In this document: one piece after another, positions 1 to 27,996 of the stretch
Layout: the number at the start of each line of letters is the position of its first letter
Position numbering within the stretch: position 1 is the first letter of the stretch
Source of the DNA: a virus
IMG/VR virus record: IMGVR_UViG_3300009495_000054
Span: 1-28,217 of that record
Strand: one strand, 5' to 3'
Length of the DNA stretch: 28,217 nt
The notes under the pieces: generated by a model
What the model was told of the DNA's origin: nothing
The model's database searches: none
What the model saw: the letters and a program-made list of their open reading frames with translations, nothing else
Made by a program: the position numbers and the translations under genes

Positions 1-113
1 AAATTAGTACCAGACTGATCGATTTGAATCTCATTATCTGCCATAGCACTAAGTGCTACCATAGATAGAATGGTTACTACTGTCATCACTTGCCAAAATT
101 TATTTTCTTTCAT
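1..113 (-). CDS. Curlin-like secreted protein, N-terminal part (runs off window)
   Basis: Only the first 37 codons lie in the window, from the ATG at 113. They encode a signal peptide (a Lys/Asn start, a hydrophobic core around residues 10-22, and a likely cut after AMA) followed by DNEIQIDQSGTN. That mature start closely matches the beginning of the curlin-like protein at 1211-1939 (DNEINIDQTGN) and has the Q-x-G-x-x-N flavour of curlin repeats. The gene begins one base after the stop of the FecR-like gene, so it belongs to the same late operon. By position and sequence it is a second candidate substrate of the CsgG-like pore. Its repeat number and length cannot be judged because the 3' end is missing. 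Confidence 0.6.
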   Translation of the reverse strand, partial: MKENKFWQVMTVVTILSMVALSAMADNEIQIDQSGTN

Positions 114-114
114 A

Positions 115-1257
115 TTAATTACTCTGTTTAATAACAACTACTATATCACCACCACCATCGGCAGTAATGATCCCCTTGTACCCATCCACTTCGGTATCTA
201 CTGTGATACCACCACCAGATAGGAAACGTAAACTTATCACACCATTAACGTCCCTGTAAAATACAAGACCACCATCTTCATTAAAGATATTGTATTGACT
301 GTCATTATTTAGTCCATACGTAGCACCCTTTAATGTTGCTTTACCCATACCCGTACTTGCTTGTTGATCAGATAGATCACCCATAGTTCTTTCTAATTCT
401 TCTATTATATCGAGTAGGTCTACAAGGAAGTCTCCACCCAGAGCATCATAGTCCAGTCTGGTGAAATCATCCTCTTCGAGATAATCTTCGTAATCCTTAT
501 CTAACTCATCGAATGCAAGAAAGTCTGCATCCAGTTTACCATAGTCGAACCGTGCTTCCCGTACACGTTGATCTTCTATTGCCTGTGCTACCTCTTCGGG
601 TGGATTGACGATAAATATATTATCAATCATATTTGGTGTAATGTTATCTATCACTACTGTTTGAGTTGGCATTGTGGATATACTGGAGACCATAGTCGCC
701 GCATATGCTTGGGATAGTGTTACAGATCCTGCCTCATTAGATACTACAATCTCTCCAGACGGAGCACCGTACTCATCTGGAAGTAGAATCACAAGTGATC
801 TTCCCAGTTCATCGATTGTAGTTGTGAAATCTGTTCCCCGAACCGCAATGGTTGCGGTGGGTGTTTTGATATCGATATTAGATTTGTCTACCATACCCAA
901 ACGACCAGATGCAAATCTTGCAGTCCCAAGTGCCATCTTCATGACCATCTTGGACTTGCTCGGATCTGGGTCGTAATAGATCTTATCGATATAGACTTTG
1001 GTATGTTCTATCAAAGATAGTTCTGCATCATCAAGAAACTTAATGAGCATCCTACCCTTCGCAGTTTGTGCAGTGTCGTTTAGTTGGATTTCAGTCCCAA
1101 CTGCACCTTCCACAATTTGCTTGGATTCTCGTTCGAGTGATCCTACTCCCGTAGATTCGACTACCCCACCAATCGATTCGGCATTGACCGAACCAATTAG
1201 TAGAACAGTGCTAACTGTCGTTAGCAGTATCTTTTTGATTAATCTGGATGACAGCAT
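115..1257 (-). CDS. Secreted FecR-domain protein of the curli-like module
   Basis: A 380-residue protein with a clear signal peptide (residues 1-26, ending VNA). A FecR-type region covers roughly residues 30-160: the run RMLIKFLDDAELSL is followed by the hallmark TPTATIAVRGTDF at residues 132-144. FecR domains are best known from periplasmic signalling proteins, but here there is no membrane anchor after the signal peptide, so the protein should be periplasmic or exported. Residues 230-290 are very acidic (Asp/Glu/Leu rich), and the C-terminus is Gly/Val rich and probably beta-structured. The start overlaps the end of the curlin-like gene by 47 bases. It sits inside a csgF-csgG-curlin operon, so a role in assembling or anchoring the exported fibre is plausible but inferred. 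The FecR call is firm; the function is not known. Confidence 0.75.
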   Translation of the reverse strand: MLSSRLIKKILLTTVSTVLLIGSVNAESIGGVVESTGVGSLERESKQIVEGAVGTEIQLNDTAQTAKGRMLIKFLDDAELSLIEHTKVYIDKIYYDPDPSKSKMVMKMALGTARFASGRLGMVDKSNIDIKTPTATIAVRGTDFTTTIDELGRSLVILLPDEYGAPSGEIVVSNEAGSVTLSQAYAATMVSSISTMPTQTVVIDNITPNMIDNIFIVNPPEEVAQAIEDQRVREARFDYGKLDADFLAFDELDKDYEDYLEEDDFTRLDYDALGGDFLVDLLDIIEELERTMGDLSDQQASTGMGKATLKGATYGLNNDSQYNIFNEDGGLVFYRDVNGVISLRFLSGGGITVDTEVDGYKGIITADGGGDIVVVIKQSN

Positions 1258-1939
1258 TATCGGACGTAATATCTAAAGTGATGATACCCTTACAAGTAGT
1301 AATACCTGTAGGACATGTACCACTTAACTGATTAATGTCGATGTTTGCATTGTCTCCGTCAAACTCAACCGTTTGCGTTTGGTAAAACCCATCATTCTGT
1401 AAAGATTTAATGTCATTATTGTCACCAGTAATATCCCAGTTCCAAGTAACATCATCTGTTTCAATGTCTATATCAAATACGTTTGTTGATCCAAGAACAG
1501 ATAGATCGAAATCTAAACGTTCAGAAGATGCAACAGATCCTTGATCAAAATCGATTGTGTTAGAATCACCAGTCATAGTGATATCCATAGTTGTTGAATC
1601 AGAAGATCCAGTGTCACCAATCAAATAATCAAGAACGTTAGCATCACCAGTCCACGATAAATTATACGTAGAACTGTTTGCTGTTAGCGTACCATATAGT
1701 AAGTTTTCGTTACCAAGTTGATCTATATTAAAGGTCAACGAAGTACCAGTAATGGGTGTTGCCGCCGATGAGGTTTCAAAATTGTTTAAACCAATCTTGT
1801 TACCGTAACCAACTTGATCGATATAAAGAGTCAGAGTGTTACCAGTCTGATCTATATTAATCTCGTTATCATCAGTTGCCGCTGCCCACGCAAACGAAGT
1901 TAGCATTAATCCTGCCATAGCAATAAAATACTTATTCAT
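1211..1939 (-). CDS. Curlin-like (CsgA/CsgB-type) repeat protein
   Basis: A 242-residue secreted protein: signal peptide 1-19 ending SFAWA, then a mature region very rich in Asp, Asn, Thr, Ser, Ile and Gly. Several imperfect repeats of about 20 residues are visible, beginning INIDQTGNTLTLYIDQVG and continuing with FNIDQLGNENLL, LSWTGDANVLDY, ITMTGDSNTIDF, WDITGDNNDIKS and VEFDGDNANIDINQ. The first units carry the curlin signature (I-x-I-D-Q-x-G-x-x-N). Later units replace the Gln with acidic or other residues. Curlins are exported through CsgG and polymerise into amyloid; that is family knowledge. Here csgG ends inside the start of this gene (8-base overlap) and an AGGAG box precedes the ATG, so the two are probably translated together. 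It could instead be another beta-solenoid adhesin. Amyloid formation is inference. Confidence 0.72.
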   Translation of the reverse strand: MNKYFIAMAGLMLTSFAWAAATDDNEINIDQTGNTLTLYIDQVGYGNKIGLNNFETSSAATPITGTSLTFNIDQLGNENLLYGTLTANSSTYNLSWTGDANVLDYLIGDTGSSDSTTMDITMTGDSNTIDFDQGSVASSERLDFDLSVLGSTNVFDIDIETDDVTWNWDITGDNNDIKSLQNDGFYQTQTVEFDGDNANIDINQLSGTCPTGITTCKGIITLDITSDNAVIQINQKDTANDS

Positions 1940-2885
1940 TTTTTTCTCCTAAAGGGTGTGCATCATTTTTCCCATCTGCTTGATGGGGGTGACGATGTCC
2001 TTGCCCTACTTTCCAAAGTCCTCTATCGTGACCTTGGTATATTAATTCCAGTACACTTGCTTCAATAGCAGAACGTACCGCATATGTCACTGACTCATTA
2101 TTACCCACTCCGTCCTCGTATTCCACGAGTTGGGTTCCCTGTTCATAAAACCTAAACAGATCCCCACCAGACCCATAAGACAAAATTGTCTTCTTCGTCT
2201 GGACGTTTAACAAAACTTCTCCCGTTAGCACAGAGACTGCTCGGACAGAGACGGTGACAATATCTTTGCGATACTGTCTGGTGAATCCAATGCCCAATGT
2301 TCTGGCACCTCGTCCACCACTTTCTACATTGGTGTCATAACCAATGATCCCACCTTCGATAATCATCCCCGCAAAAAGCAGAGGGGCAATGCCCTGCGAT
2401 TTCTCATCGGCATATTCTTTACGGGTACTTCTCACAATCTGGCGTTCTCTGACCAAATTGTCTATACCTTGTCTCTCAACTACACGGAACCATGTACCTT
2501 GTCCCGCAGTCTTGAGTGCATCGATCAGCATCTCAGTTCCACCTTGAGTGACAGCAGTACTAAAATCTGCAATACCGTCTCGTGCCTTTCTTTGTCCAGT
2601 AAGATCTTTGAACCCGTATACGGCAACAACTGGTTTTAGGGTCGCCGGTGGCACCTGTAGAAGTTCTACATACGCCGGTAGTTTAACCACTTCTGGTAGA
2701 TCCACACATATATATTTACGTGCCATCGTTTTTTGAAGACCCATCTGCAAATGCCGTTGGTAACCTTCAGAATATTTTCCTGCATTATCATTACAATCTT
2801 GAGGTTGATCCGACCACTGTGGTACGGATGCACAACCTGTCAAAAAAATGAACAGTACAGATAGTAGTAGCAAATTACGTGCCAT
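1932..2885 (-). CDS. csgG: CsgG-like outer-membrane curli secretion pore lipoprotein
   Basis: A 317-residue lipoprotein with signal peptide and lipobox LTGC (lipidated Cys18). Core CsgG motifs are present in order: VVAVYGFKDLTGQ, DFSTAVTQGGTEMLIDALK, WFRVVERQGIDNLVRERQI, EGGIIGYDTNVESGG, GARTLGIG, LTGEVLLNVQTKKTILSY, and a C-terminal YQGHDRGLW. CsgG forms a nonameric outer-membrane channel that exports curlin subunits. The ATG at 2885 was chosen because it puts the signal peptide at the N-terminus; it overlaps the csgF end by 11 bases. A His/Asp/Lys-rich tail of about 22 residues follows the canonical end, making it longer than the roughly 277-residue E. coli protein. In the constriction loop the Phe is kept, but the neighbouring Asn and the Tyr appear to be replaced by Asp. 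Family assignment is very secure; the role in the phage is inferred. Confidence 0.93.
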   Translation of the reverse strand: MARNLLLLSVLFIFLTGCASVPQWSDQPQDCNDNAGKYSEGYQRHLQMGLQKTMARKYICVDLPEVVKLPAYVELLQVPPATLKPVVAVYGFKDLTGQRKARDGIADFSTAVTQGGTEMLIDALKTAGQGTWFRVVERQGIDNLVRERQIVRSTRKEYADEKSQGIAPLLFAGMIIEGGIIGYDTNVESGGRGARTLGIGFTRQYRKDIVTVSVRAVSVLTGEVLLNVQTKKTILSYGSGGDLFRFYEQGTQLVEYEDGVGNNESVTYAVRSAIEASVLELIYQGHDRGLWKVGQGHRHPHQADGKNDAHPLGEKNE

Positions 2886-3372
2886 CTCCACCATCTCCTG
2901 TATCTCCATCCGAACCAAAGTTACCAGTTCCGATTGGAATCTCAATTATTGTTTCAGTACCATCACTATCAATGATGGTCATCTTAATAAATTCTGTTCC
3001 GTCTTCTCCCGTAATTACTTCATAGGTTATAACGGATCCTTCTAATGTAAATGACCCGAACGTTACCGCACTATCATTGCTAAACATATTATCTACCAAT
3101 TGCTTAGATAACTGAGCATAGATTCGTGATTCCAGATTACGTATAAATTTTGCCAATACGGTGTTATCTGCTTCACGTTCTGCCGCCTTCTGTGCCGCCT
3201 CTAAAGCATCGGCAATTGCTTTCTTCCTTGAATGCTCTTGGTTCTCAATTGTTAAATAATGTGCCCCAGTTCCTATTCCACTAAATGACGGGTTCTTAAA
3301 CCCATGTACTATCTCAGTTGCTTGGGTCTGAGTAGTCACTATCATCAATGTGAGTAATACTAATCTTTTCAT
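2875..3372 (-). CDS. csgF: CsgF-like curli assembly factor
   Basis: A 165-residue secreted protein. The signal peptide (residues 1-18) ends TQTQA. The mature N-terminus carries the CsgF hallmark, HGFKNPSFSG followed by GAHYLTIENQEHS, equivalent to the FRNPNFGG...LLNSAQAQN region of E. coli CsgF, the part known to plug into and cap the CsgG channel. A helical, Ala/Glu-rich segment (residues 45-95) and a beta-rich C-terminal domain follow. Compared with E. coli CsgF (138 residues) it has a longer central helix and an acidic Gly/Asp tail (GSDGDTGDGGDGT). Its start overlaps the preceding small membrane-protein gene by 59 bases in another frame, and its end overlaps csgG. CsgF links CsgG to the nucleating curlin, so its presence beside csgG makes a working export complex likely. 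Confidence 0.88.
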   Translation of the reverse strand: MKRLVLLTLMIVTTQTQATEIVHGFKNPSFSGIGTGAHYLTIENQEHSRKKAIADALEAAQKAAEREADNTVLAKFIRNLESRIYAQLSKQLVDNMFSNDSAVTFGSFTLEGSVITYEVITGEDGTEFIKMTIIDSDGTETIIEIPIGTGNFGSDGDTGDGGDGT

Positions 3373-3607
3373 TGTCTTTATCCTGTTGTTGTAGCAACAT
3401 ATCTAATTTAACATTTAGTCTTATTAAATCGTTATCCAACATACGTACTTTATCAATTAGGTCAATTAAGGTCATGTGGGATTCTTCTATCACTGGATTC
3501 ACTTCCTGTGTTACCCAGATCCATATGTAGTATATGAAGTATCCTAACCCTATTGCCGCCATTATAGGAAACCCATAGGTTCCTACTGCTTCTACTATTG
3601 TTTCCAT
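3314..3607 (-). CDS. Small holin-like membrane protein B
   Basis: A 97-residue protein with one N-terminal transmembrane helix (about residues 12-33, FPIMAAIGLGYFIYYIWIW). A predicted coiled-coil stretch (residues 45-75, rich in Leu, Asp, Lys and Gln) and a polar acidic tail follow. The layout, with a short N-terminus starting MET-VEAVGTYGFPI, resembles the BhlA/UviB holin-like family. It is paralogous to the gene just upstream at 3611-3889 (GYFGFPI-type start, one helix, then coiled coil). An AGGA box precedes the ATG. As part of the late operon leading into csgF and csgG it may be a holin, or a membrane partner of the export pore. I cannot tell these apart from sequence. Confidence 0.6.
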   Translation of the reverse strand: METIVEAVGTYGFPIMAAIGLGYFIYYIWIWVTQEVNPVIEESHMTLIDLIDKVRMLDNDLIRLNVKLDMLLQQQDKDNEKISITHIDDSDYSDPSN

Positions 3608-3610
3608 TCT

Positions 3611-3889
3611 CTAATCCTTTCTGTGATCCTCTTGCCCTTTAGACCTTGCTACTCTGTTCATATCTGGTCTAATACTAAATGCATGGGATATCATAATGTC
3701 TATCTTTAATAGTTCATTATTCATAGTACCAATTCGATTCTGCAATGATTTCACAAACATACGTTGTGTCTTGATGTCATCAAGTACACCTGCGAGAATA
3801 AACTTTAGAGTAAGGAACACGAAGAATCCACCTGCGAGTGCAGATGCTATAGGGAAACCAACGTCTCCTATTAATTCTAAATATTCCAT
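3611..3889 (-). CDS. Small holin-like membrane protein A
   Basis: A 92-residue protein, first gene after the late promoter at 3919-3926, with an AGGG box seven bases before its ATG. It has one transmembrane segment (about residues 11-34, VGFPIASALAGGFFVFLTLKF), then an amphipathic helical stretch with Leu/Ile heptads and a basic, charged tail (SKGQEDHRKD). It is a diverged paralogue of the protein encoded at 3314-3607, sharing the N-terminal GFPI motif and the same layout. Tandem one-helix proteins with cytoplasmic coiled coils fit a BhlA/UviB-type holin pair, but neither has a decisive motif. Its lead position in the curli-like operon may mean that it conditions the inner membrane for export or lysis. 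Confidence 0.6.
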   Translation of the reverse strand: MEYLELIGDVGFPIASALAGGFFVFLTLKFILAGVLDDIKTQRMFVKSLQNRIGTMNNELLKIDIMISHAFSIRPDMNRVARSKGQEDHRKD

Positions 3890-3918
3890 AAATACCCTGT
3901 TGTAATAGTTTACGTATC

Positions 3919-3926
3919 TATTTATA
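3919..3926 (-). promoter_or_regulatory. T4-type late promoter of the curli-like module
   Basis: On the minus strand this reads TATAAATA, exactly the T4 late promoter box recognised by the phage sigma factor gp55 with clamp help. It lies 29 bases before the start of the first module gene (3889) in the only real gap of this area (3890-3951), and the upstream gene ends at 3952. It predicts that the whole 3889-to-1 operon is expressed late in infection. Confidence 0.75.
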
Positions 3927-3951: not shown

Positions 3952-4173
3952 TTATTGAACTTTCCAGTCGGTAATAGTAGACACACGAATGTCCATCCAC
4001 ATCTCTTTATCTGTATCATAAACAATAATAGTGTGACTATCATGCTGTTGTTTAATTGTTGTTTTACTAACAAGAGTACCATTGACATTTAATGGTTCTT
4101 CTGTTAACCAATGTTTAAACTTTATAAGTACATTACCTTTCTGTAATGCCTCTAACAAGTTTGCCGTGCTCAT
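3952..4173 (-). CDS. Small SH3-barrel-like phage protein
   Basis: A 73-residue basic/acidic mixed protein with no signal peptide. It begins with a helix (LLEALQKGNVLIKFK) and then alternates short beta stretches (TLVSKTTIKQ, HTIIVYDTD, WMDIRVSTITDWKV). This resembles the small SH3-like phage proteins grouped under DUF2693, although the similarity is only by eye. Its ATG overlaps the stop of the SGNH-like gene (TAATG), indicating translational coupling. It is the last gene before the late promoter of the curli-like module, so it ends the early or middle operon. Function unknown. Confidence 0.55.
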   Translation of the reverse strand: MSTANLLEALQKGNVLIKFKHWLTEEPLNVNGTLVSKTTIKQQHDSHTIIVYDTDKEMWMDIRVSTITDWKVQ

Positions 4174-4919
4174 TAAAATTTAGTTGTCCTGTAAATGTGA
4201 TGTAATAGTCCTGCGTATTCTTCATGAGTTTCTTCGTCTGGGTGCCCAAATGGTTTTACCTTATACTTAGTTCTTGCGAGTTTAAATAGATCAGTGTATT
4301 TGCCCATACCCAATCTATGATGATCTGGGAAAGAATCAATTTTCCTCTTTACCCAATCATTATACTCACCCCAATTCAACTTTCTGGTATTTCGAGGGGT
4401 AAAACAATCTATGTAGTTTACCCACATGCGTTCATGGAATACACCTTGTATTAACTTTATACCTTTTGCTTCGCATAAAAGACCCAGTGTTTCCATGTAA
4501 GTTATTGTACTAATGATACCATCACGAGTAGACTCGACAACATCATAGTATGGGTCAAGTACATTACTCAGATCTGGATGTAGATATTCCAACCTACTCG
4601 GAGATATCTGAGTCATGCACTGCCATCGTTGAATCTTCATCTCCTCTTCATAACCTGTAGGGTGAGTCTCTGCCGTTTCATGACGTTGCCATGCTGACCA
4701 TATGATAACCAAATGTGTTACATCATCGTGTCTACTCAAATAATCTATAGTATCTCTAAAGATCTTTTGATTACATGCACCACATGTTGCAATATTTACA
4801 AAAGGTATTTCGAGATGTTCTGCAAGTATGCTTGGGAATGCAAGATGTTCGTGTTGATTGTCTTCATAACCATCCAACTCATCTCCCCATACAAAACTAC
4901 ACCCGTTAGTAACTAACAT
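4173..4919 (-). CDS. SGNH/GDSL-hydrolase-like protein, copy 1
   Basis: A 248-residue cytoplasmic protein. The N-terminus MLVTNGCSFVWGDELDGYE matches block I of SGNH hydrolases, with Ser8 as the possible nucleophile in a GCSF context. VNIATCGACNQKI resembles the Gly/Asn block, VTHLVIIWSAWQRHE the third block, and GHPDEETHEEYA near the C-terminus holds the likely catalytic His. The usual Asp-x-x-His reads Glu-Glu-Thr-His here. It is clearly paralogous to the next gene upstream (4906-5679), which it overlaps by 14 bases. SGNH enzymes are esterases or acyl-chain hydrolases, and marine T4-like phages often carry such proteins of unknown substrate. Given the altered catalytic dyad, activity is uncertain. 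Confidence 0.65.
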   Translation of the reverse strand: MLVTNGCSFVWGDELDGYEDNQHEHLAFPSILAEHLEIPFVNIATCGACNQKIFRDTIDYLSRHDDVTHLVIIWSAWQRHETAETHPTGYEEEMKIQRWQCMTQISPSRLEYLHPDLSNVLDPYYDVVESTRDGIISTITYMETLGLLCEAKGIKLIQGVFHERMWVNYIDCFTPRNTRKLNWGEYNDWVKRKIDSFPDHHRLGMGKYTDLFKLARTKYKVKPFGHPDEETHEEYAGLLHHIYRTTKF

Positions 4920-5679
4920 TATGTTCCTTGATTATATCAATTAATTGGTTTGCAAACTCCGTGTGAGAATCCTCACAAGCATGACCACGTGGTTTAATAC
5001 TATTCTTATTTGCTGACATAGTATATATATCCGAATATCTTCCCAGTCCTATACGACATTCATCTCTGAGGTAAGACATAGATTTTGTAATAGCAGACTT
5101 GTACTGTTCATAGTCTTTAGACTTTAATGTGCTCAGAAAATTACGATACATGTCTCCATGTATAACACTTTGTATGACACCTATACCCATCTGGTCACAT
5201 AGGAATTGTATGTTTTTCATATACATCAATGTGTGTACGATAGAGGTGTGCATAGTCCAGACGTTATCGATATACTCCTTGAGTATTCTCATACGTTTAG
5301 GACATTCCTCAGATCGGTTGTCAAACCTAAAACTGTCAGAACGATGATTAGCAATGATCTGGTTCATATTAGATTCACGGTGAATGTTAATCTCCAGATC
5401 TGATTGTAGTGTGAAGGGTTCACATAATTCGAAACGACCAAAGTTGCTCCACATGATAACAATCATGTCGATCTTCTTATTGGTTTCTTGTAGGAATTCT
5501 GTTGTAGTGCGGTAGATCTTTGAATTAGAGCAACCGTTCTGTGCGAGGTTTATATACTTAGAATTAAGTTCGTTAGATAATTTATATGCATACGTGTGAG
5601 CGTGATGGGTATTTGTTTCATACCCATCCAACTCATCACCGTATGTAAAACTGTCACCGTTAAATAGTATCGTTCTCAT
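4906..5679 (-). CDS. SGNH/GDSL-hydrolase-like protein, copy 2
   Basis: A 257-residue protein. The start at 5679 was chosen because it puts the block I motif RTILFNGDSFTYGDEL directly at the N-terminus, as in its paralogue; an in-frame start 36 bases upstream would add a 12-residue low-complexity tail. It has the canonical GDS motif (Ser11), INLAQNGCSNSKI as the Gly/Asn block, MIVIMWSNFGRFE, and a C-terminal GHACEDSHTEFA with the likely His. Relative to copy 1 the core is conserved but the central 80 residues differ strongly, suggesting different substrates. Its first 20 bases overlap the 3' end of the DUF3310-like gene. Function unknown; an esterase-like fold is the best reading. Confidence 0.68.
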   Translation of the reverse strand: MRTILFNGDSFTYGDELDGYETNTHHAHTYAYKLSNELNSKYINLAQNGCSNSKIYRTTTEFLQETNKKIDMIVIMWSNFGRFELCEPFTLQSDLEINIHRESNMNQIIANHRSDSFRFDNRSEECPKRMRILKEYIDNVWTMHTSIVHTLMYMKNIQFLCDQMGIGVIQSVIHGDMYRNFLSTLKSKDYEQYKSAITKSMSYLRDECRIGLGRYSDIYTMSANKNSIKPRGHACEDSHTEFANQLIDIIKEHNVSY

Positions 5680-6061
5680 GGATCCTGTCATGCTCGTATA
5701 GTGCGAGGAATCCATAATGAATGATTTTCATTATATCTTTTCGATGGTCTGCGGGAGTACCTTTCTTACCATATCGTCCGTTGTACTTATCGACATTGCC
5801 AAGGAAGAATCCCATACCATGCCCACGGTCAACAATGACTTCAGAAGATTGTAAACCGCCTTGACCATAGTGTCCCCCATATGTATTATCTATATAATCA
5901 GCAAACTCACGAATGAGGTTATTCTCATTGAATTTGTAATCTGGAGCATCAACAACATTGACTCTCTTGAGATCTTCGGAATGCATATGGATTCTACCTT
6001 GACCTAATTTCTGGGTGGCATCATCTACTGAAGTAAACGGAGGTACGTGTGCTTTAACCAT
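5660..6061 (-). CDS. DUF3310-like phage protein
   Basis: A 133-residue protein. The start at 6061 was chosen because it follows the end of the dsbA-like gene with an 8-base overlap; longer in-frame starts would run through that gene. The C-terminal half has the pattern typical of DUF3310 proteins: NTYGGHYGQGGLQSSEVIVDRGHGMGFFLGNVDKY, shown here only by its key pieces YGGHY, GMGFFLGNVDKY and NGRYGKKG, then ADHRKDIMKIIHY. These are common in phages and sometimes labelled nucleotide kinase, without proven activity. It lies between DsbA and the SGNH pair in a tightly overlapping operon. Function unknown. Confidence 0.65.
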   Translation of the reverse strand: MVKAHVPPFTSVDDATQKLGQGRIHMHSEDLKRVNVVDAPDYKFNENNLIREFADYIDNTYGGHYGQGGLQSSEVIVDRGHGMGFFLGNVDKYNGRYGKKGTPADHRKDIMKIIHYGFLALYEHDRIHENDTI

Positions 6062-6305
6062 TGAACAACTCCTCATACAAAGTGTCGATGTCATCGTTCT
6101 CGGTACGTACTTCTGCCATGTTAGACTTGTGGTAGATACTTGCAAGTTTACGTAGATGCTTCTTATCTACTCCATGGTTCTCGAAGGTCACCTGTACGAT
6201 GTCCTTGATTAAATCTTTCTCTGCGTCCATGCGTGTCATGGAATCAGACATTTCTTTGATTGCGTTACCAATCCTTTTCTTATCATCTGGTGTTAATGTG
6301 ATCAT
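6054..6305 (-). CDS. dsbA: DsbA-like double-stranded DNA binding protein
   Basis: An 83-residue protein closely following T4 DsbA: KDLIKDIVQVTFENHGVDKK matches the central helix, then LRKLASIYHKSNMAEVRTEN and a C-terminal TLYEELFNG (DDIDTLYEELF) replace the T4 equivalents YHKQ...ETDEVVELYDAIF. T4 DsbA binds double-stranded DNA at late promoters and helps late transcription. T4-type late boxes elsewhere in this window fit that role. The ATG overlaps the stop of the 2OG oxygenase-like gene and the 3' end overlaps the next gene by 8 bases. Length is close to the T4 protein (89 residues). Confidence 0.82.
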   Translation of the reverse strand: MITLTPDDKKRIGNAIKEMSDSMTRMDAEKDLIKDIVQVTFENHGVDKKHLRKLASIYHKSNMAEVRTENDDIDTLYEELFNG

Positions 6306-6967
6306 AATGTTTCTATATCCTCAATTAATAAATCTCTTAAATCTCGTGCTTGTTGATCACGAGGGTCATTTATACCATAACCACAGAACTTATATGCCAA
6401 GGTGATTCTATCATCCCCTGCATATGCACTGTGCCAACAATGGTGCTCTTTCTCTTCTTCACTACCGAAGTAGTAATGTCGGCATTGCCAACCTGCCACA
6501 TCTTGATGAGTGACAAGTTTCCCAGTCTCGTTATCTAAGTATCGGAAGAACCCTTTACCCGTAGACCACGTAAATAAGACTTGGTAGGCAGATGCGTCAT
6601 AGTTAGTGTGCCATCCGACAAATCCCCCTTTGGGATAGTATGATAGCAGGGCACTGGTATGTGCACCTATCTCTGAAGCAAAATCATATTTCACCCGTTG
6701 CATATAATCCTTCCATTTAGGATCTATACGCACCATCTTAGAGATGGGTTGGGCAAAGTGTCGATCTGGCACTCCAACTAACTTGTCTCTGGATAAACAT
6801 TCATCCAGATATTCTTGAGAGCAAAAGTATTCACCGTTGCTCTTATCTTCTTCACTACTATACACGTGTGCGTCTGGATTGTTATAATCCTTCTCAGCAA
6901 AGAATCTATCAGAGAATCCGTTAAGAGTCTCCAACAATTCTTTATTGCGTATAGTAACTTCGGACAT
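6302..6967 (-). CDS. 2-oxoglutarate/Fe(II) oxygenase-like protein
   Basis: A 221-residue protein resembling the 2OG-Fe(II) oxygenases common in marine T4-like phages. Motifs are GGFVGWHTNYDASAYQVLF (first metal ligand His in a His-x-Asn context), GFFRYLDNETGKLV, and a distal CWHSAYAGDDRITLAYKF with the second His and the Arg that would bind 2-oxoglutarate. The first metal motif lacks the usual Asp (HTN instead of HxD), although an Asp follows two residues later, so activity is uncertain. The ATG overlaps the stop of the Sm-like gene. Substrate unknown: possibilities include protein, nucleic acid or small-molecule hydroxylation. Confidence 0.65.
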   Translation of the reverse strand: MSEVTIRNKELLETLNGFSDRFFAEKDYNNPDAHVYSSEEDKSNGEYFCSQEYLDECLSRDKLVGVPDRHFAQPISKMVRIDPKWKDYMQRVKYDFASEIGAHTSALLSYYPKGGFVGWHTNYDASAYQVLFTWSTGKGFFRYLDNETGKLVTHQDVAGWQCRHYYFGSEEEKEHHCWHSAYAGDDRITLAYKFCGYGINDPRDQQARDLRDLLIEDIETL

Positions 6968-7245
6968 TAGATAATAATTCCACTGGTTGCTTCAATGTAT
7001 GACTTCTGGAATGACTCATTAGTCTCTACAACAAATAATACATCCAAGAATGTTACCTGCTCTGGGTTTTCCTTTGCAGACATACATACACCACGACCAA
7101 ATCCAATATTACCTTCTGGGTCTTGGACAATTAGTCTTGGGTTATCGGCAACTACATTGTCACCATCAATTTGATTCAACTTACCGATATATTCACCGAT
7201 ACCTGTCATTATGGTGACGATGTCACCTTTTTTCATTTTACTCAT
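6967..7245 (-). CDS. Sm-like small phage protein
   Basis: A 92-residue protein. The start at 7245 was chosen because it follows a GGAG-type box (GGAGAAGAAG) and lies 8 bases inside the preceding small gene. An N-terminal MKKGDIVTIMTGIGEYIGKL, then GDNVVADNPRLIVQDPEG and IGFGRGVCMSAKENPEQVTF, give a short five-strand pattern like the Sm/LSm-type barrel proteins reported in cyanophages and relatives. Such proteins may bind RNA, but this family has no proven role in phages. The Sm label is tentative. Confidence 0.55.
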   Translation of the reverse strand: MSKMKKGDIVTIMTGIGEYIGKLNQIDGDNVVADNPRLIVQDPEGNIGFGRGVCMSAKENPEQVTFLDVLFVVETNESFQKSYIEATSGIII

Positions 7246-7405
7246 CTTCTTCTCCGATTTTAATAAGTTTCCATTCATTATTTGGAAGTTGTTCCCATTG
7301 TAACACATCTCCCACCTTAAAGTCAAGCGTTTCCATCAATTCATCTGAAAACTCTATACACAATTCTCCGTCACTATCTTTGACGATTGGACACGTAAAC
7401 TTCAT
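7238..7405 (-). CDS. 55-residue AbrB-like small protein
   Basis: A short gene (MKFTCPIVKDSDGELCIEF at the start) whose ATG overlaps the ThyX stop as ATGA, so it is translationally coupled to thyX. It ends inside the start of the Sm-like gene. The pattern of an early beta hairpin followed by LDFKVGDVLQWEQL and WKLIKI is that of AbrB/MazE-type swapped-hairpin proteins, where a Gly-Asp turn follows a helix. Such proteins bind DNA as dimers. The similarity is by pattern only; the gene itself is well supported by its tight junctions and by the lack of any alternative in this space. Confidence 0.6.
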   Translation of the reverse strand: MKFTCPIVKDSDGELCIEFSDELMETLDFKVGDVLQWEQLPNNEWKLIKIGEEDE

Positions 7406-8121
7406 CCTAAGAACTTCCCTGTCTCAACATCACAACCCGCATCATCTACAACCCGCACCTTTGGTTTAGGTTCCAGTGCTTCCACAACATCTGGGAAGTG
7501 AACACCAACATGTTTCCAACATTTTAATGCTACTTCTCTGTGTTCTTTTTGAGTCTCGATACCCATACGCAACTGGCAGTAGTGAATCCACGAACGTAAC
7601 GATCCTGCCATATACAATGTAGTCTCAGTATTACCTTCGGGTAACAGCACACGTGCTTGTTCTTTTGCAATACCATTATCTAGTGCCCAGTTATAGTTCT
7701 TCTTCGCAATATTGATAACTTCACGTTGTTTCATATTCCAGTCTTCTGCCAGTGTTCGATCATCTGTCTCAACAGATGCTTGTCTATTCTTGGCATCCTG
7801 CATACGTGCTTCTCTGGTATCGAAGTCTTCTGACTCAGCATACCTCTGTGAGAACTCTTGATATGAAAACGAGCGATGACGTAAGATCTGTCTACTAATA
7901 TCACGAGTAGTCTTGATCTCCAAAGTCATATGCACCATCTCGAACGGTGACCAATGACCATGTTTAATCAGATACTTGATCAACCGTGGGGCAGTCTCAT
8001 TATTACTTTGGTTAGCAGGATTAGATACACGTGCGGTATATGCAACTAATTCATTTGCATCCCACACACTAGTATGTCCCACGTTTGGTTTGGTTACACC
8101 AACCAGATTTACTTCACTCAT
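7402..8121 (-). CDS. thyX: Flavin-dependent thymidylate synthase ThyX
   Basis: A 239-residue enzyme that makes dTMP from dUMP using FAD and methylene-tetrahydrofolate. The ThyX signature RHRSFSYQEFSQRY is intact, including both Arg and the activating Ser. SNPANQSN, HWSPFEMVHMTLEI and the C-terminal WIHYCQLRMGIETQKEHREVA region are also typical, and the length is normal. The start at 8121 was preferred to 8127 because a GGAG box sits nine bases before it but only three before the other. Together with dCMP deaminase (22628-23074) and MazG it forms a phage nucleotide supply set. Its 5' region carries the 22-base repeat described separately. Confidence 0.93.
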   Translation of the reverse strand: MSEVNLVGVTKPNVGHTSVWDANELVAYTARVSNPANQSNNETAPRLIKYLIKHGHWSPFEMVHMTLEIKTTRDISRQILRHRSFSYQEFSQRYAESEDFDTREARMQDAKNRQASVETDDRTLAEDWNMKQREVINIAKKNYNWALDNGIAKEQARVLLPEGNTETTLYMAGSLRSWIHYCQLRMGIETQKEHREVALKCWKHVGVHFPDVVEALEPKPKVRVVDDAGCDVETGKFLG

Positions 8122-8140
8122 CCTCATAGTCTCCTTTCAT
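8119..8140 (-). repeat. 22-base repeat, copy 1 (thyX translation start)
   Basis: On the minus strand this reads ATGAAAGGAGAC, one variable base, then ATGAGGATG: Shine-Dalgarno plus start region of thyX. It matches 8547-8568 at 21 of 22 positions (the sole difference is T versus G in this strand). Confidence 0.85.
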
Positions 8141-8159
8141 AGGTATTCTCTCTTTCTTT

Positions 8160-8549
8160 TTAGACACGATATTCTAACTCCTGCTCCATAGCAATTTTAA
8201 TCCCTGTATTGATTGACGGCACATTCTTTAGAACTGCTTCAATGTGATCAGTAGTCATATCACACAATGTAATATATGCTAATGGTTGATCTCCGTTAAT
8301 ACCGTATGTTCCCCAATCACATGCTTCCCGAATAACTTCGTGTGTATCTTCTAATGTAACGACCAAGTGTTCTTCATCACCATTAGCACTACAACGAACA
8401 TAGTCTAGTCCACCGTCAAGCATATATGTCTTGCCATTAGTATCAGTGTGCGTGACATAATCATGTCGGTGACGGCTTTGTAATATTGTGCCGTCTGGTG
8501 TGCGAAGGGCATTGCGTATCAATAAATATTTATCAGTCATTACTGCCAT
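8160..8549 (-). CDS. Conserved-looking phage protein of unknown function
   Basis: A 129-residue soluble protein without a motif I can name. It starts MAVMTDKYLLIRNALRTPDG, then SRHRHDYVTHTDTNGKTYM and a Cys/Trp segment EACDWGTYGINGDQPLAYI, ending with a helical stretch. The start is uncertain: ATG 8549 lies nine bases after a GGAG box, while ATG 8540 and ATG 8555 are also in frame. Whichever start is used, it overlaps the end of the small membrane-protein gene. A gap of 38 bases separates it from thyX, partly filled by a mini reading frame ending at the repeat. Similar proteins seem to accompany T4-like marine phage metabolism genes, but I cannot give a role. Confidence 0.6.
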   Translation of the reverse strand: MAVMTDKYLLIRNALRTPDGTILQSRHRHDYVTHTDTNGKTYMLDGGLDYVRCSANGDEEHLVVTLEDTHEVIREACDWGTYGINGDQPLAYITLCDMTTDHIEAVLKNVPSINTGIKIAMEQELEYRV

Positions 8550-8715
8550 CCTCATCGTCTCCTTTCATTACACGCATTAGATCTGCGTCATTCATATGCC
8601 TTAGAGTTATCTCTATGCCCCTAATCTTACCTAGATAATATCCAACATAGTTAGATACCCCCATTAGTGCCATGACAAAGAGTGTCATCTCCCATGGTTG
8701 CCATACAGTCATCAT
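8533..8715 (-). CDS. 60-residue one-helix membrane protein
   Basis: A short protein with one transmembrane helix (about residues 9-29, MTLFVMALMGVSNYVGYYLG) and a charged C-terminal tail (RVMKGDDEDGSND). Its ATG overlaps the stop of gp41 (ATGA), so it is coupled to the helicase gene; a second ATG three bases later is equally possible. The coding end contains copy 2 of the 22-base repeat, used as the translation start of the next gene. No family recognised. Confidence 0.55.
   Translation of the reverse strand: MMTVWQPWEMTLFVMALMGVSNYVGYYLGKIRGIEITLRHMNDADLMRVMKGDDEDGSND
8547..8568 (-). repeat. 22-base repeat, copy 2 (start of 8160-8549 gene)
   Basis: On the minus strand this reads ATGAAAGGAGAC, one variable base, then ATGAGGATG. 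It covers the ribosome binding site and start of the 8160-8549 gene while also coding for the tail of the upstream membrane protein. It matches 8119-8140 at 21 of 22 positions. Confidence 0.85.
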
Positions 8716-10118
8716 AGTTTAAAGTCTCCAAACCTATTCTCTTGATTTAACCGTTGACCACTTGCACTGTTATCGAATGCAGGGCCGTTGTCTTCTTCAC
8801 GATTCATAGGATTAGTAGACTGATCTACATCATACAAACGCATCTTGGATCTATCTACACCGACCACAAACCTACCATTAGCAACTGGATCATTGTATCG
8901 ATTCTTCAATTGCTTCACAAGGATCTGTCTATTGTTTGACAATTCTTCATTTGAAATCAAGGCAAACATTAGATCCGCAGTAGCAGGTAGACCAAATGAT
9001 TCAGAAGTATCTTCCAAACCAACATCATCATTACTGTATCCAGATCTTGTAGTCTGTGTTGCAGATACTACTGGTACATCAAACTCAACTGCGAGTCCAC
9101 GTAGTTCTTCTGCAATAGACTTGATGTATGTATATGAATTGATTGATCCGCCCATTGCTTTCATACGAGATGATGAGCAGATGTTTAGATAATCAATATA
9201 GATCATGTCTGGCACAAAGTTCTTCTTGAGTTTCAACTCATTCAGTAGTGCACGGAAGTGAGAGGCATTTGCACCCCCAGTCGGATATTCTTTAATGATC
9301 AACTTACCGTTGGTCTTTGCAGAGATCTGACCTACCTTGTCTGTGAACATATCACGTGACATATTCTCTAACTGATCAATAGGTATGTTCAGAAGATTAG
9401 CATCGATACGTTCTGCGATTCTTTCTTCTGCCATCTCCATAGTAATGTACAATACGTTCTTACCCATAGTAAGAGCGGCACCTGCACAGTGACACATAAA
9501 GAGAGACTTACCAACACCTGTACCTGCCAGTGCAATGTTCAGAGTCTTGTTAGGTAAACCACCCTTGGTGATCTTGTTGAATAGGTCAAGGTCAAACGGT
9601 AGTCTTTCCTCAGTAGTTGTATAGAAGTCATAACGATCATCGACATTCTCAATGTAGTCGTGACCAATGTTTGTATCAAAAGTAACTGCCAGTGCTTTGG
9701 ATAGAATATCTGGAAGTGCGTTCTTGGTTAGTGTCTGGTGCTTACCATCAATGACTTGAATAGATTCCATGATAGCATTATATACTGCACGGTCTTGGCA
9801 CCACTTCTCGGTACGATCAATCAACCATTCAAGGTTCTCTTTCTCATAGTTAAAGATGTTAGGAAGGATCTCCATGGCATGACGATAGTGTTCGTCAGAC
9901 ATTCTGTCTGCTTCATCGATCTCAATCTTGAATGATTCTTGCGTAGGAAGTTTGTTATACTTCGCAATGAACTTAGTAAACTCTGAGAACAGTCCTTTGT
10001 ATACACCCTCGAAATATTCGGGTGCTAAGAATGCGGCGACCTTACGGGTGTACGCATCATTCGTTAGTAGATTCCGCAGAATCGTTTGTTCCAGTTTTAT
10101 TTCCAATTGCTTCTCCAT
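8712..10118 (-). CDS. 41: Replicative DNA helicase gp41 (DnaB-like)
   Basis: A 468-residue replicative helicase, close to T4 gp41 (475 residues). The N-terminal helical domain spans about residues 1-150. The RecA-like C-terminal domain holds Walker A GTGVGKS (residues 199-205), Walker B MIYIDYLNI, the sensor-type VPVVSATQTTRSGYS, and the Arg-rich LVKQLKNRYNDP. It unwinds the fork ahead of gp43. The start at 10118 was chosen because it begins MEKQLEIKLEQTIL as in the family; longer frames reach into unrelated sequence. It overlaps the preceding gene by 62 bases. There is no T4 gp61-type primase gene in the window, so its primase partner may be the AEP-like protein at 13342-14286. Confidence 0.93.
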   Translation of the reverse strand: MEKQLEIKLEQTILRNLLTNDAYTRKVAAFLAPEYFEGVYKGLFSEFTKFIAKYNKLPTQESFKIEIDEADRMSDEHYRHAMEILPNIFNYEKENLEWLIDRTEKWCQDRAVYNAIMESIQVIDGKHQTLTKNALPDILSKALAVTFDTNIGHDYIENVDDRYDFYTTTEERLPFDLDLFNKITKGGLPNKTLNIALAGTGVGKSLFMCHCAGAALTMGKNVLYITMEMAEERIAERIDANLLNIPIDQLENMSRDMFTDKVGQISAKTNGKLIIKEYPTGGANASHFRALLNELKLKKNFVPDMIYIDYLNICSSSRMKAMGGSINSYTYIKSIAEELRGLAVEFDVPVVSATQTTRSGYSNDDVGLEDTSESFGLPATADLMFALISNEELSNNRQILVKQLKNRYNDPVANGRFVVGVDRSKMRLYDVDQSTNPMNREEDNGPAFDNSASGQRLNQENRFGDFKL

Positions 10119-11465: not shown

Positions 11466-12404
11466 TTATTCACTTTCTCCAAATGTTATATTATTAACCT
11501 TTTCACGTTCATCTATATCATACATTATACGATATTTTCCGTTGATTGTCAAGACTTTTTCCAATAAATCGAAAGTATTTTCACTACCTCTTGACTCCGA
11601 AAACTTTAGCAGTGCCATAGTGTCTTTGGGTAGACATGCGCCACCGAACCCCTTCTTCTTATCTGGGCCTGGGACTCTTGTATGTTTGATACCGATACGA
11701 TCATCTGCACCCATGGCACGAGTGACCACATTGTAACTACAATCAAATCCATCAACCAGATCTTTCAACTGATTAAAGAATGTGAGTTTAGTTGCAAGGT
11801 ATGCATTCGTGGCATACTTAACAAACGATGCTTCACATCCAGACATCTTATAATACTTGTCACTCTTACATAGAGAGAAGATGTCATAGAGTTGTGCCAG
11901 TTCGTCACATGCATTTACAGTGCCACCGAACACATGGTGTTCAGCATTCACAAAGTCTTCACATGCAGACTTCTCAGTTAGGAACTCTGGATTATAAATG
12001 AACCTATCCATATCTTCTGGTTCTACAGAGTTATAGAGTCTGTCGATTATATCTGGTGTTACTGTTGATTTGACAACAACAAATGCGTTCGTATTGTATA
12101 TGAGTTTCAGTACAGCATCTTCTACAATAGATGCATCAACAAATCCACTCTTAGGATTCTGTGGTGTTGGTGCACATATAAAGACTATAGATGGATCCCA
12201 TTTAATAAGGTCATCTATGTTTGTATCATAGTTAGGATCAACTAAGAAGTGTTCTATCATGTGGTGATGGAATGCATATTCCACTGCCTTACCTACAAAC
12301 CCATGACCGACAATACCCATCTTCAATGGGTTCTCTTTACTTACTGTGTCGGGTTGTGGTTCCCCATCTGTCTTGGGGACGAACTTATCAAAATCATCTG
12401 CCAT
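11466..12404 (-). CDS. ugd: UDP-glucose 6-dehydrogenase, short phage form
   Basis: A 312-residue enzyme of the UDP-glucose/GDP-mannose dehydrogenase family, which oxidises UDP-glucose to UDP-glucuronate with NAD. Visible motifs: NAD-binding GIVGHGFVGKAVE (around residue 31), FICAPTP, VVVKSTVTP, YNPEFLTEKSA, EASFVKYATNAYLATK, and the catalytic GFGGACLPKD with its Cys. Family members are usually 390-450 residues. This one ends about 55 residues after the catalytic Cys and so lacks the usual C-terminal UDP-binding domain. The start at 12404 follows the stop of the epimerase gene by two bases. The neighbouring epimerase uses its product, so the two form a pathway. Because of the missing domain, substrate choice is inferred. 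Confidence 0.85.
   Translation of the reverse strand: MADDFDKFVPKTDGEPQPDTVSKENPLKMGIVGHGFVGKAVEYAFHHHMIEHFLVDPNYDTNIDDLIKWDPSIVFICAPTPQNPKSGFVDASIVEDAVLKLIYNTNAFVVVKSTVTPDIIDRLYNSVEPEDMDRFIYNPEFLTEKSACEDFVNAEHHVFGGTVNACDELAQLYDIFSLCKSDKYYKMSGCEASFVKYATNAYLATKLTFFNQLKDLVDGFDCSYNVVTRAMGADDRIGIKHTRVPGPDKKKGFGGACLPKDTMALLKFSESRGSENTFDLLEKVLTINGKYRIMYDIDEREKVNNITFGESE
11524..11552 (-). promoter_or_regulatory. Sigma70 promoter for uvsX
   Basis: Minus strand: -35 TTGACA at 11552-11547, a 17-base spacer, -10 TATAAT at 11529-11524. It lies within the 3' part of ugd, 60 bases before the uvsX start, so the leader is long enough for the GGAG box. TATATC and GATAT arms flank the -10, but this repeat is weak. 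Confidence 0.85.
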
Positions 12405-12406
12405 AA

Positions 12407-13342
12407 TTATACTCCGTGATATTCCTTGTACCATTTATAAAAGTTTGCAATGCCCTCTGGGATACTTGTAGTTGGATGGTAACCCAGTGATTCTAATTTA
12501 CCAGTGTTACTCCAAGTCTCTAATGTATCCGCAGGATGTTTGGGTTGCAAATCCTTGATTGCTTTCTTACCAGTGTTCTTTTCAATCTCAGTAATAAAGT
12601 CCATGAGGTTAACTTGTTGACCCCGTCCAATATTAAAGATCTCTCCAGACTTAACATCTTCTTCTAATATGAGTTCGATTCCCTTAATGATATCTTGCAC
12701 GTAAGTGAAATCACGTTTCATATTACCATAATTATACACTGTTATTGGGAGTTCGTCAAGTATATTTTGAGTAAATGTGAACAGTGCCATGTCTGGTCTG
12801 CCCCACTCACCGTATACTGTAAAGAACCTTAGACCTGTAACATTCAAACCAGATGCAGTGAACTGACATTCGTTTGTCCACTTAGACCATCCATAAGGAT
12901 TCAATTGTTTGCCACCCTCATTACCTTCAGTCCATGGTAATTCAGATCCTGCATATACACATGAGGTTGATGCATACACAATACGTACTTCTGGACAATG
13001 CACCTTGCATAGATCAATTAAGTTTTGTGTACCATCAATATTATTGGAATGATATGCTTTCTCTTTACCGAACGAATCACGTACACCCGCATATGCAGCG
13101 AGGTGGACAATGTGTGTGGGTTTCTCTTTTGATAGGAGTTGTGCAAGTTTGCTTTCATCTCTTAGATCTACTGGTCTTACATCCAGACCAAAATGAATTA
13201 CCCTATCCTCTTTTAGAGATGGGTCATATAGATGATCGTTATAGTTATCGAGTCCGACAACATCTTCACCTGCTTCCTGTAGTTTACTTGCGAGTTGAGA
13301 TCCAATGAATCCCGCCGCACCTGTTATTAAATATTTTCTCAT
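12407..13342 (-). CDS. UDP-glucuronate 4-epimerase (SDR family)
   Basis: A 311-residue extended short-chain dehydrogenase. N-terminal KYLITGAAGFIGSQLA is the NAD-binding Gly motif. VYASTSCVYAG supplies the catalytic Ser/Thr region, and NPYGWSKWTNE the Tyr-x-x-x-Lys. The segment LRFFTVYGEWGRPDMALFTF with VYNYGNMKRDFTYV is typical of UDP-glucuronate 4-epimerases (CapI/LspL type), which make UDP-galacturonate. This is more specific than a general GalE assignment. Full length for the family. Its stop and start overlap the neighbouring genes by a base or two, next to ugd, which makes its substrate. Use could be glycosylation of phage or host surface, or of a phage protein; that is inferred. Confidence 0.87.
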   Translation of the reverse strand: MRKYLITGAAGFIGSQLASKLQEAGEDVVGLDNYNDHLYDPSLKEDRVIHFGLDVRPVDLRDESKLAQLLSKEKPTHIVHLAAYAGVRDSFGKEKAYHSNNIDGTQNLIDLCKVHCPEVRIVYASTSCVYAGSELPWTEGNEGGKQLNPYGWSKWTNECQFTASGLNVTGLRFFTVYGEWGRPDMALFTFTQNILDELPITVYNYGNMKRDFTYVQDIIKGIELILEEDVKSGEIFNIGRGQQVNLMDFITEIEKNTGKKAIKDLQPKHPADTLETWSNTGKLESLGYHPTTSIPEGIANFYKWYKEYHGV

Positions 13343-27454: not shown

Positions 27455-27483
27455 ATTATACTATACTAATTAGTATTTGTCAA
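27455..27483 (-). promoter_or_regulatory. Sigma70 promoter for gp46, probably leaderless
   Basis: Minus strand: TTGACA at 27483-27478, a 17-base spacer, TATAAT at 27460-27455, then AGGCAT and the ATG at 27448. The -35 lies in the last codons of the upstream gene. Confidence 0.9.
27463..27476. repeat. 14-bp perfect palindrome in the gp46 promoter spacer
   Basis: ATACTAATTAGTAT is a perfect palindrome that fills the spacer between the -35 and -10 boxes of the gp46 promoter. Its position suits a repressor operator, though AT-rich palindromes also arise by chance. Confidence 0.65.
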
Positions 27484-27996
27484 GTCCTTTATTTCCCAGT
27501 CCTGTTTTATGTCTTTTCGATATATCTTAGAGAACACATTAAATGGTATGTCCATATATCCGTTTGCTCTTTGGGTCATCGATCCATGAAAGTTCATATT
27601 ACATGCTACGTAAATAGTCCCGTCATGCATTCTACTATCAACAGATGTACAGATGTAGTCTGCTCCAGTCATCTTCATGGTACGGGACACAAACCACGAA
27701 GTGATGTTATACTCTTCACTGTCTACGGCAAGTCTTGATAACTCATAGTAATTAGAATAGTCGGAATCTTTGCATCCATAGTAAAACCTACACCATTCTT
27801 CACCACACCTTTTTTGACAATAAGATGTATATTGTACAGCACCAATCAGATCATCACCATTAAACAACCCATAGTATTTGTAATCACGTATAACAGCATC
27901 ATGCTCATCATATATTTTTCCAAGGTAATGGTGTTCTTCTATAATAGACTTTGCCATCCCCTTACTAATTGGACGTACATCAAAGTTAGACTTCAC
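27466..27996 (-). CDS. Mom/GNAT-like protein
   Basis: A 176-residue protein starting with GTG at 27996 (overlapping the gp47 stop as GTGA). SIIEEHHYLGK, YYGLFNGDDLIGAVQYTSY, YYELSRLAVDSEEYNITSWF and VSRTMKMTGADYICTSVD follow the pattern of Mom-type and related GNAT-fold phage proteins: the HHYLG, GLF-x-G-x-LIG and ELSRL-x-x blocks. Mu Mom modifies adenine in phage DNA to block restriction; other relatives have no known role. It is unclear whether this copy modifies DNA, RNA or protein. It lies between gp47 and gp46 in the recombination operon, where T4 has small unknown genes. Confidence 0.55.
   Translation of the reverse strand: MKSNFDVRPISKGMAKSIIEEHHYLGKIYDEHDAVIRDYKYYGLFNGDDLIGAVQYTSYCQKRCGEEWCRFYYGCKDSDYSNYYELSRLAVDSEEYNITSWFVSRTMKMTGADYICTSVDSRMHDGTIYVACNMNFHGSMTQRANGYMDIPFNVFSKIYRKDIKQDWEIKDLTNTN

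Follow-up and report, generated by a model that had tools for sequence, protein, structure and literature searches.

The window, by which we mean the whole stretch of DNA analysed here, is an IMG/VR virus record of 28,217 bases that carries T4-type replication genes. The G+C content of the phage is 40%, and its DNA polymerase and helicase are 69% and 80% identical, respectively, to those of the nearest phage, C48C1 (Kyanoviridae). At the left end of the window, on the minus strand, lies a block of genes whose adjacent frames overlap or sit a few bases apart:

3919..3926, minus strand: putative late promoter box TATAAATA, an exact match, 30 bases before the H1 start codon
3611..3889, minus strand: H1, 92 aa, one predicted N-terminal membrane helix followed by a soluble segment (phrog_18771, 5.4e-27; hydropathy; linkage)
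3314..3607, minus strand: H2, 97 aa, a paralogue of H1 (phrog_18771, 3e-27; hhalign)
2875..3372, minus strand: CsgF homologue (Pfam CsgF, 1.7e-15; conservation in 25 sequences)
1932..2885, minus strand: CsgG outer-membrane lipoprotein pore with a lipobox cysteine (Pfam CsgG, 1.7e-51; PDB CsgG 3x2r, 6e-47)
1211..1939, minus strand: Cur1, curlin-like secreted subunit with degenerate repeats (Curlin_rpt, 0.0056, below cut-off; relatives above)
115..1257, minus strand: secreted FecR-domain protein with a curlin-like C-terminal tail, IVVVIKQSN (Pfam FecR, 1.9e-7)
1..113, minus strand: Cur2, second curlin-like protein, start only, the open reading frame running off the window end

A preliminary description of this DNA had proposed an overlapping operon behind an exact late box, and every part of it was confirmed at the positions listed above. 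Its reading of the locus as a phage-encoded curli-type export module is well supported, as is the late-type promoter in front of it, and a Pfam profile search placed the CsgF, CsgG and FecR homologues that it had named all above the curated cut-offs. The start of CsgG was corrected to the ATG at 2885, which gives an L-T-G-C lipobox, of which the G-C is invariant across relatives. In CsgF, the pore-binding segment, of the form F-x-NP-x-F-x-G near the mature N-terminus, is conserved across the 25 sequences; a phmmer search with CsgF returned no match. CsgE, CsgC and CsgD had been reported missing from the window with the caution that its left end is cut. Reading on past that end in relatives, we recognised none of the three in the continuation of the module either, and the literature likewise reports them absent.

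The two curlin-like secreted proteins were upheld less evenly. Cur1 of the window matches the curlin repeat weakly (E 0.0056, 17.0 bits against a Pfam cut-off of 20.7 bits) and Cur2 is cut, but relatives of both proteins exceed the cut-off, at 33.1 bits in HTVC008M and at 26.0 and 21.8 bits in Melnitz. The Q, G and N positions are invariant in Cur1 relatives, and the predicted Cur1 model is all-beta (pLDDT 83, pTM 0.79); a fold search of this model against the PDB found nothing significant. Signal peptides were assessed by eye. Three relatives that are nearly identical to the window over the module (L001, L002 and L004) complete Cur2, its full length in L001 being 8758-9486.

The FecR protein has a leader of about 25 residues and a FecR domain at residues 63-150, the only domain matched. 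The sigma-binding N-terminal domain of classical FecR is absent, with no room for one, and we therefore rejected a role as an iron regulator. The predicted model matches the periplasmic domain of FecR/PupR (TM 0.52 by target length), PupR being an anti-sigma regulator; because of the low confidence of this model (pLDDT 67), interpretation was confined to the FecR domain. At the other end of the protein, the tail resembles the C-terminal ends of curlins (I-x-I-x-Q). The pattern [IVLFY]-x-[IVLFY]-x-Q occurs within the last 14 residues of 25 of 26 operon FecRs compared with 1 of 13 FecRs in a comparison set drawn away from curli, apart from one operon FecR, from Hyphomonas, that is without the tail; the background of the motif in open reading frames is 17.5%. 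This contrast, drawn between related sequences and so short of a formal test, is suggestive, and the curlin-like tail makes it probable that FecR is a component of a fibre or of its anchor.

In all three near-identical relatives (L001, L002 and L004) the gene after Cur2 has about 690 codons and encodes a CHASE2 domain (1.5e-28) and a nucleotide cyclase domain (3.9e-17). Its metal-binding and catalytic residues are conserved, as are the lysine and aspartate that mark adenylate cyclases. Pairing of these two genes extends beyond phages: FecR and a CHASE2 cyclase lie no more than a few kb apart in 16 of 22 Caulobacterales genomes that have a FecR match, and a FecR-CHASE2 adenylate cyclase pair has been reported for Campylobacterota (PMC9239204). 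The Campylobacterota pair is alike in gene adjacency but has no curli beside it, and the FecRs tested from there lack the curlin-like tail. Given this pairing outside phages, the module resembles the union of a curli exporter with a signalling pair that already existed.

Gene order is strongly maintained. The arrangement H1-H2-CsgF-CsgG-Cur1-FecR-Cur2 recurs in nearly all of 80 IMG/VR loci found via CsgG, the exceptions being contig ends and single inserted genes, and the isolates HTVC008M and Melnitz share it. Disrupted frames in related phages, which the preliminary description had named as grounds for doubting the module, were looked for, and frames proved intact in nearly all relatives. 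In unsaturated comparisons dN/dS does not exceed 0.16 for H1, H2, CsgF or CsgG, while for Cur1 and FecR it reaches 0.34; every module gene, curlins included, is under purifying selection. An acquired operon in decay and without function might be suspected from the weak curlin repeats of the window and the missing CsgE, but intact frames, low dN/dS and the persistence of the module despite several rearrangements, and also in very large phages, lead us to disfavour it strongly, as very improbable.

The 8-mer TATAAATA occurs in three copies on this strand of an AT-rich window and is thus weak evidence on its own. Of 76 relatives, 58 have an exact copy in the 110 bp upstream of H1, where about 0.011 would be expected per locus; the loci are related by descent and hence not independent. 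The other 18 lack an exact box near H1. The box stands at several distinct positions relative to H1 (-13/-14, -26/-27, -35 to -41 and -48). These observations point to a T4-type late promoter before the operon that has been kept in relatives, and predict late transcription. The predicted timing bears on suggestions that the curli genes of phages coat the cell surface or bar superinfection, or that the pore imports large nutrients (PMC9599517 and PMC7029224). Lacking a CsgE plug, a CsgG pore could indeed admit small molecules; a late promoter, however, fits a product of the end of infection better than exclusion or feeding, and import would leave purifying selection on the curlins unexplained. 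We consider such roles quite unlikely.

H1 and H2 are small proteins (about 90-100 residues) in each of which hydropathy shows a single hydrophobic helix, and they are paralogues of each other (hhalign probability 97.3, E 2.3e-11). No Pfam family scored above cut-off in 22 members of H1, and PDB profile searches with H1 and H2 gave no match. A gene labelled 'histidine kinase' has been published for the related pelagiphage module, which from its position would correspond to H1/H2. Fifty H1/H2 members gave no match to kinase, HATPase or HAMP families at E up to 1; we accordingly rejected a histidine kinase identity for H1/H2, and the published label looks wrong, if it was meant for these genes.

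The preliminary description had called H1 and H2 holin-like. Their size and single-helix shape agree with this, as does a T4-type lysozyme nearby in many relatives, but a match to any holin family is wanting: the best were phrog_4898 at 0.045 and YvrJ at 0.042-0.28, far below cut-off. Their distribution is also unlike that of a generic holin, an identity that we rejected because they almost never occur without curli genes. When loci were found by H1/H2 alone, with CsgG not required, a module gene lay within 4 kb of the pair in 146 of the 159 best-scoring loci, and 8 of the 13 exceptions have a contig end no more than about 310 bases from the pair. A second, more distant best-scoring sample gave a module gene with H1/H2 in 72 of 80, most exceptions again being cut by contig ends; the two samples partly overlap, and each is the best-scoring part of a longer list. 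The linkage is kept across arrangements, with pair and module in line or convergent, with H1 inside the module and with the module upstream. In the phage collection, H1 was found only in the HTVC008M and Melnitz isolates. It was found neither in 67 other cellular curli loci nor in 385 Alphaproteobacteria genomes; the model used does match the known phage records. H1 and H2 are phage-specific and nearly always accompany the curli module.

Might the locus instead be a lysis device, in which H1 and H2 act as holin and antiholin, the CsgG/CsgF pore times or completes lysis, and the curlins are secondary? The idea has been proposed for Melnitz (PMC9004378), and it accords with the late box and with the holin-like size and single membrane helix of the pair. 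In 34 viral loci the strand of H1 also encodes a T4-type lysozyme, 38-751 bp upstream of it; in a further three long contigs the lysozyme gene is placed past the opposite end of the module. No T4-type lysozyme was found, however, in long contigs from the lineage of the window itself (a search for the PF05838 endolysin was likewise empty in this lineage, its positive controls also being silent), and phage C48C1 has an endolysin with no H1/H2 or CsgG match. Furthermore, a lysis device would have no need of conserved curlins, FecR and cyclase, and H1/H2 match no holin family and keep almost exclusively to curli genes. Proximity to lysozyme, which is partial support, keeps this explanation alive without carrying it, and we judge it unlikely though credible.

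Closely similar operons exist in cellular genomes. In Hyphomonas TMED17 (L094, a 705-kb contig) and in two Caulobacteraceae assemblies (L092 and L093), csgF-csgG-curlin(s)-fecR-CHASE2 cyclase lie amid ordinary bacterial genes. FecR and the cyclase have been said to be absent from bacterial T8SS operons (PMC9599517); these three Caulobacterales loci contradict that statement. The csgF-csgG-curlin(s)-fecR-cyclase series is common to these alphaproteobacterial operons and the phage module, whereas H1 and H2 are confined to the phage side: neither was found in the whole genomes of the three, in which positive controls did match. A CsgG tree nests the three cellular proteins among those of the phages (99/84), but an alternative topology that keeps the phages together also passes the test (p-AU 0.305), so the tree fixes no direction of transfer.

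Considering these observations together, we think it probable that the module is a late-made secreted curlin fibre system, that is, a phage type VIII (curli) system. The sequences show directly which genes are present, in what order, how they are conserved and linked, and the promoter motif; the late timing, the export, the fibres and the parts played by FecR, cyclase and H1/H2 are what we infer. A T4-type late promoter would drive the module after DNA replication. CsgG would form the outer-membrane pore with CsgF as its cap, and at least two curlin-type subunits would leave through it to build fibres on the infected cell or in its surroundings shortly before it lyses. The secreted FecR protein would probably be part of the fibre or its anchor rather than an anti-sigma regulator, and the CHASE2 adenylate cyclase encoded downstream in relatives probably senses the condition of either the envelope or FecR and responds by making cAMP. 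H1 and H2 would be dedicated inner-membrane proteins, which perhaps time the opening of the module or couple it to lysis. The benefit might, for example, be to hold neighbouring cells or debris together.

In favour of fibres we count the CsgG and CsgF families, the invariant lipobox, the CsgF segment, the shared order and the purifying selection, together with the conserved late box, the linkage of H1/H2, the FecR tail, the FecR-cyclase pairing and the cyclase residues. Counted against them are the missing CsgE, the weak curlin matches of the window, the lack of a PDB fold match, the 18 of 76 relatives without an exact box, and the report that clumping was not seen in Melnitz-infected cultures (PMC9004378). 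A more specific proposal, which we offer tentatively as a possibility short of probable, is that phages possess their own type VIII subtype, spread over T4-like genomes from ordinary to very large, in which a required H1/H2 pair replaces CsgE or couples export to the end of infection and FecR is built into the fibre by its tail.

The system itself is already known, and the window is one further member. The preliminary description's remark on csgG-like genes in marine phages was correct: CsgF/CsgG were reported in pelagimyophages in 2020 (PMC7029224), a curli operon in the Methylophilales phage Melnitz in 2022 (PMC9004378), and a fuller pelagiphage set of CsgA/B, FecR, cyclase and 'histidine kinase', expressed in ocean metatranscriptomes, in 2022 (PMC9599517). 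The last of these already contains the combination of CsgF, curlins and FecR that had been thought new. Its order agrees with ours (small proteins, CsgF, CsgG, CsgA/B, FecR, CsgA/B, adenylate cyclase; PMC9599517, PMC7029224), with the cyclase, beyond the window end, read from relatives. The window differs in that its phage is nearest to C48C1, that kinase-less proteins hold the 'histidine kinase' place and that its FecR is without the sigma-binding part. Melnitz has H1, H2, CsgF, CsgG, two curlin-repeat proteins, FecR and cyclase in common with our module; csgA/csgB were treated as missing there (PMC9004378), but its GenBank record and Pfam reveal curlin repeats. What is added here is the linkage of H1/H2, the FecR tail, the bacterial sister operon and the very large phage carriers.

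Published work has described the function of phage curli as a mystery and given several candidate roles. That field is now narrowed, in that production is probably late, selection acts on the curlins, FecR appears fibre-like rather than an iron regulator and H1/H2 are near-constant. Four testable genes thereby replace a vague 'auxiliary metabolic gene' label, and the cellular operon of like build offers a bench model. With respect to spread, a CsgG match in Salmonella phage S.Kent was set aside, the source being a 1.5-kb unverified contig. T4-like contigs of 236, 259, 285, 349 and 358 kb, as assembled, each carry a T4-type major capsid gene together with H1/H2 and module genes; the literature searched did not mention curli in jumbo phages, and these very large phages broaden the range of hosts to examine.

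The spacing between the T4-type late promoter motif and the start codon of H1, the small membrane protein gene that opens the module, is 13-14 bases in 33 of the 76 relatives scored (L008-L014, L020, L032-L035 and others). Given T4 spacing, the messenger in these loci would be predicted to start at the AUG itself and to be leaderless. In the window the motif lies at -37 relative to H1, and a leader with AGGG remains. A T4-type lysozyme gene is found near H1, upstream and on the same strand, in L014 and 33 other loci, and in two relatives a radical-SAM gene separates CsgF from H2, the paralogue of H1. The genes concerned are:

L014:3729-4199, same strand as H1, T4-type lysozyme, a short distance upstream of H1
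window 4173-5715, two tandem DUF6071-like proteins, immediately upstream of the module, SGNH-hydrolase-like by eye
L041:4682-5596, radical-SAM gene between H2 and CsgF (PF04055, 8.8e-13)
L010:4660-5568, radical-SAM gene between H2 and CsgF

Several further loci have an H2-CsgF gap of comparable size.

The second curlin-like protein, Cur2, carries two invariant cysteines near its C-terminal end (alignment A4; C229 and C235 in L001 Cur2 numbering). A conserved cysteine pair is also present in the first, Cur1, of the window type, but is absent from Cur1 of phages HTVC008M and Melnitz. Melnitz has been described as lacking csgA/csgB (PMC9004378); its own record (L083, MZ577097), however, is at odds with this description, encoding at 6016-8810 two proteins with curlin repeats above the Pfam cut-off.

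Elsewhere, the window phage encodes:

window 11466-13342, genes for UDP-glucose dehydrogenase and nucleotide-sugar epimerase within the replication cluster (names from the C48C1 phage annotation)
window 27466-27996, DNA modification protein resembling Mom (PF25680, 2.2e-14)
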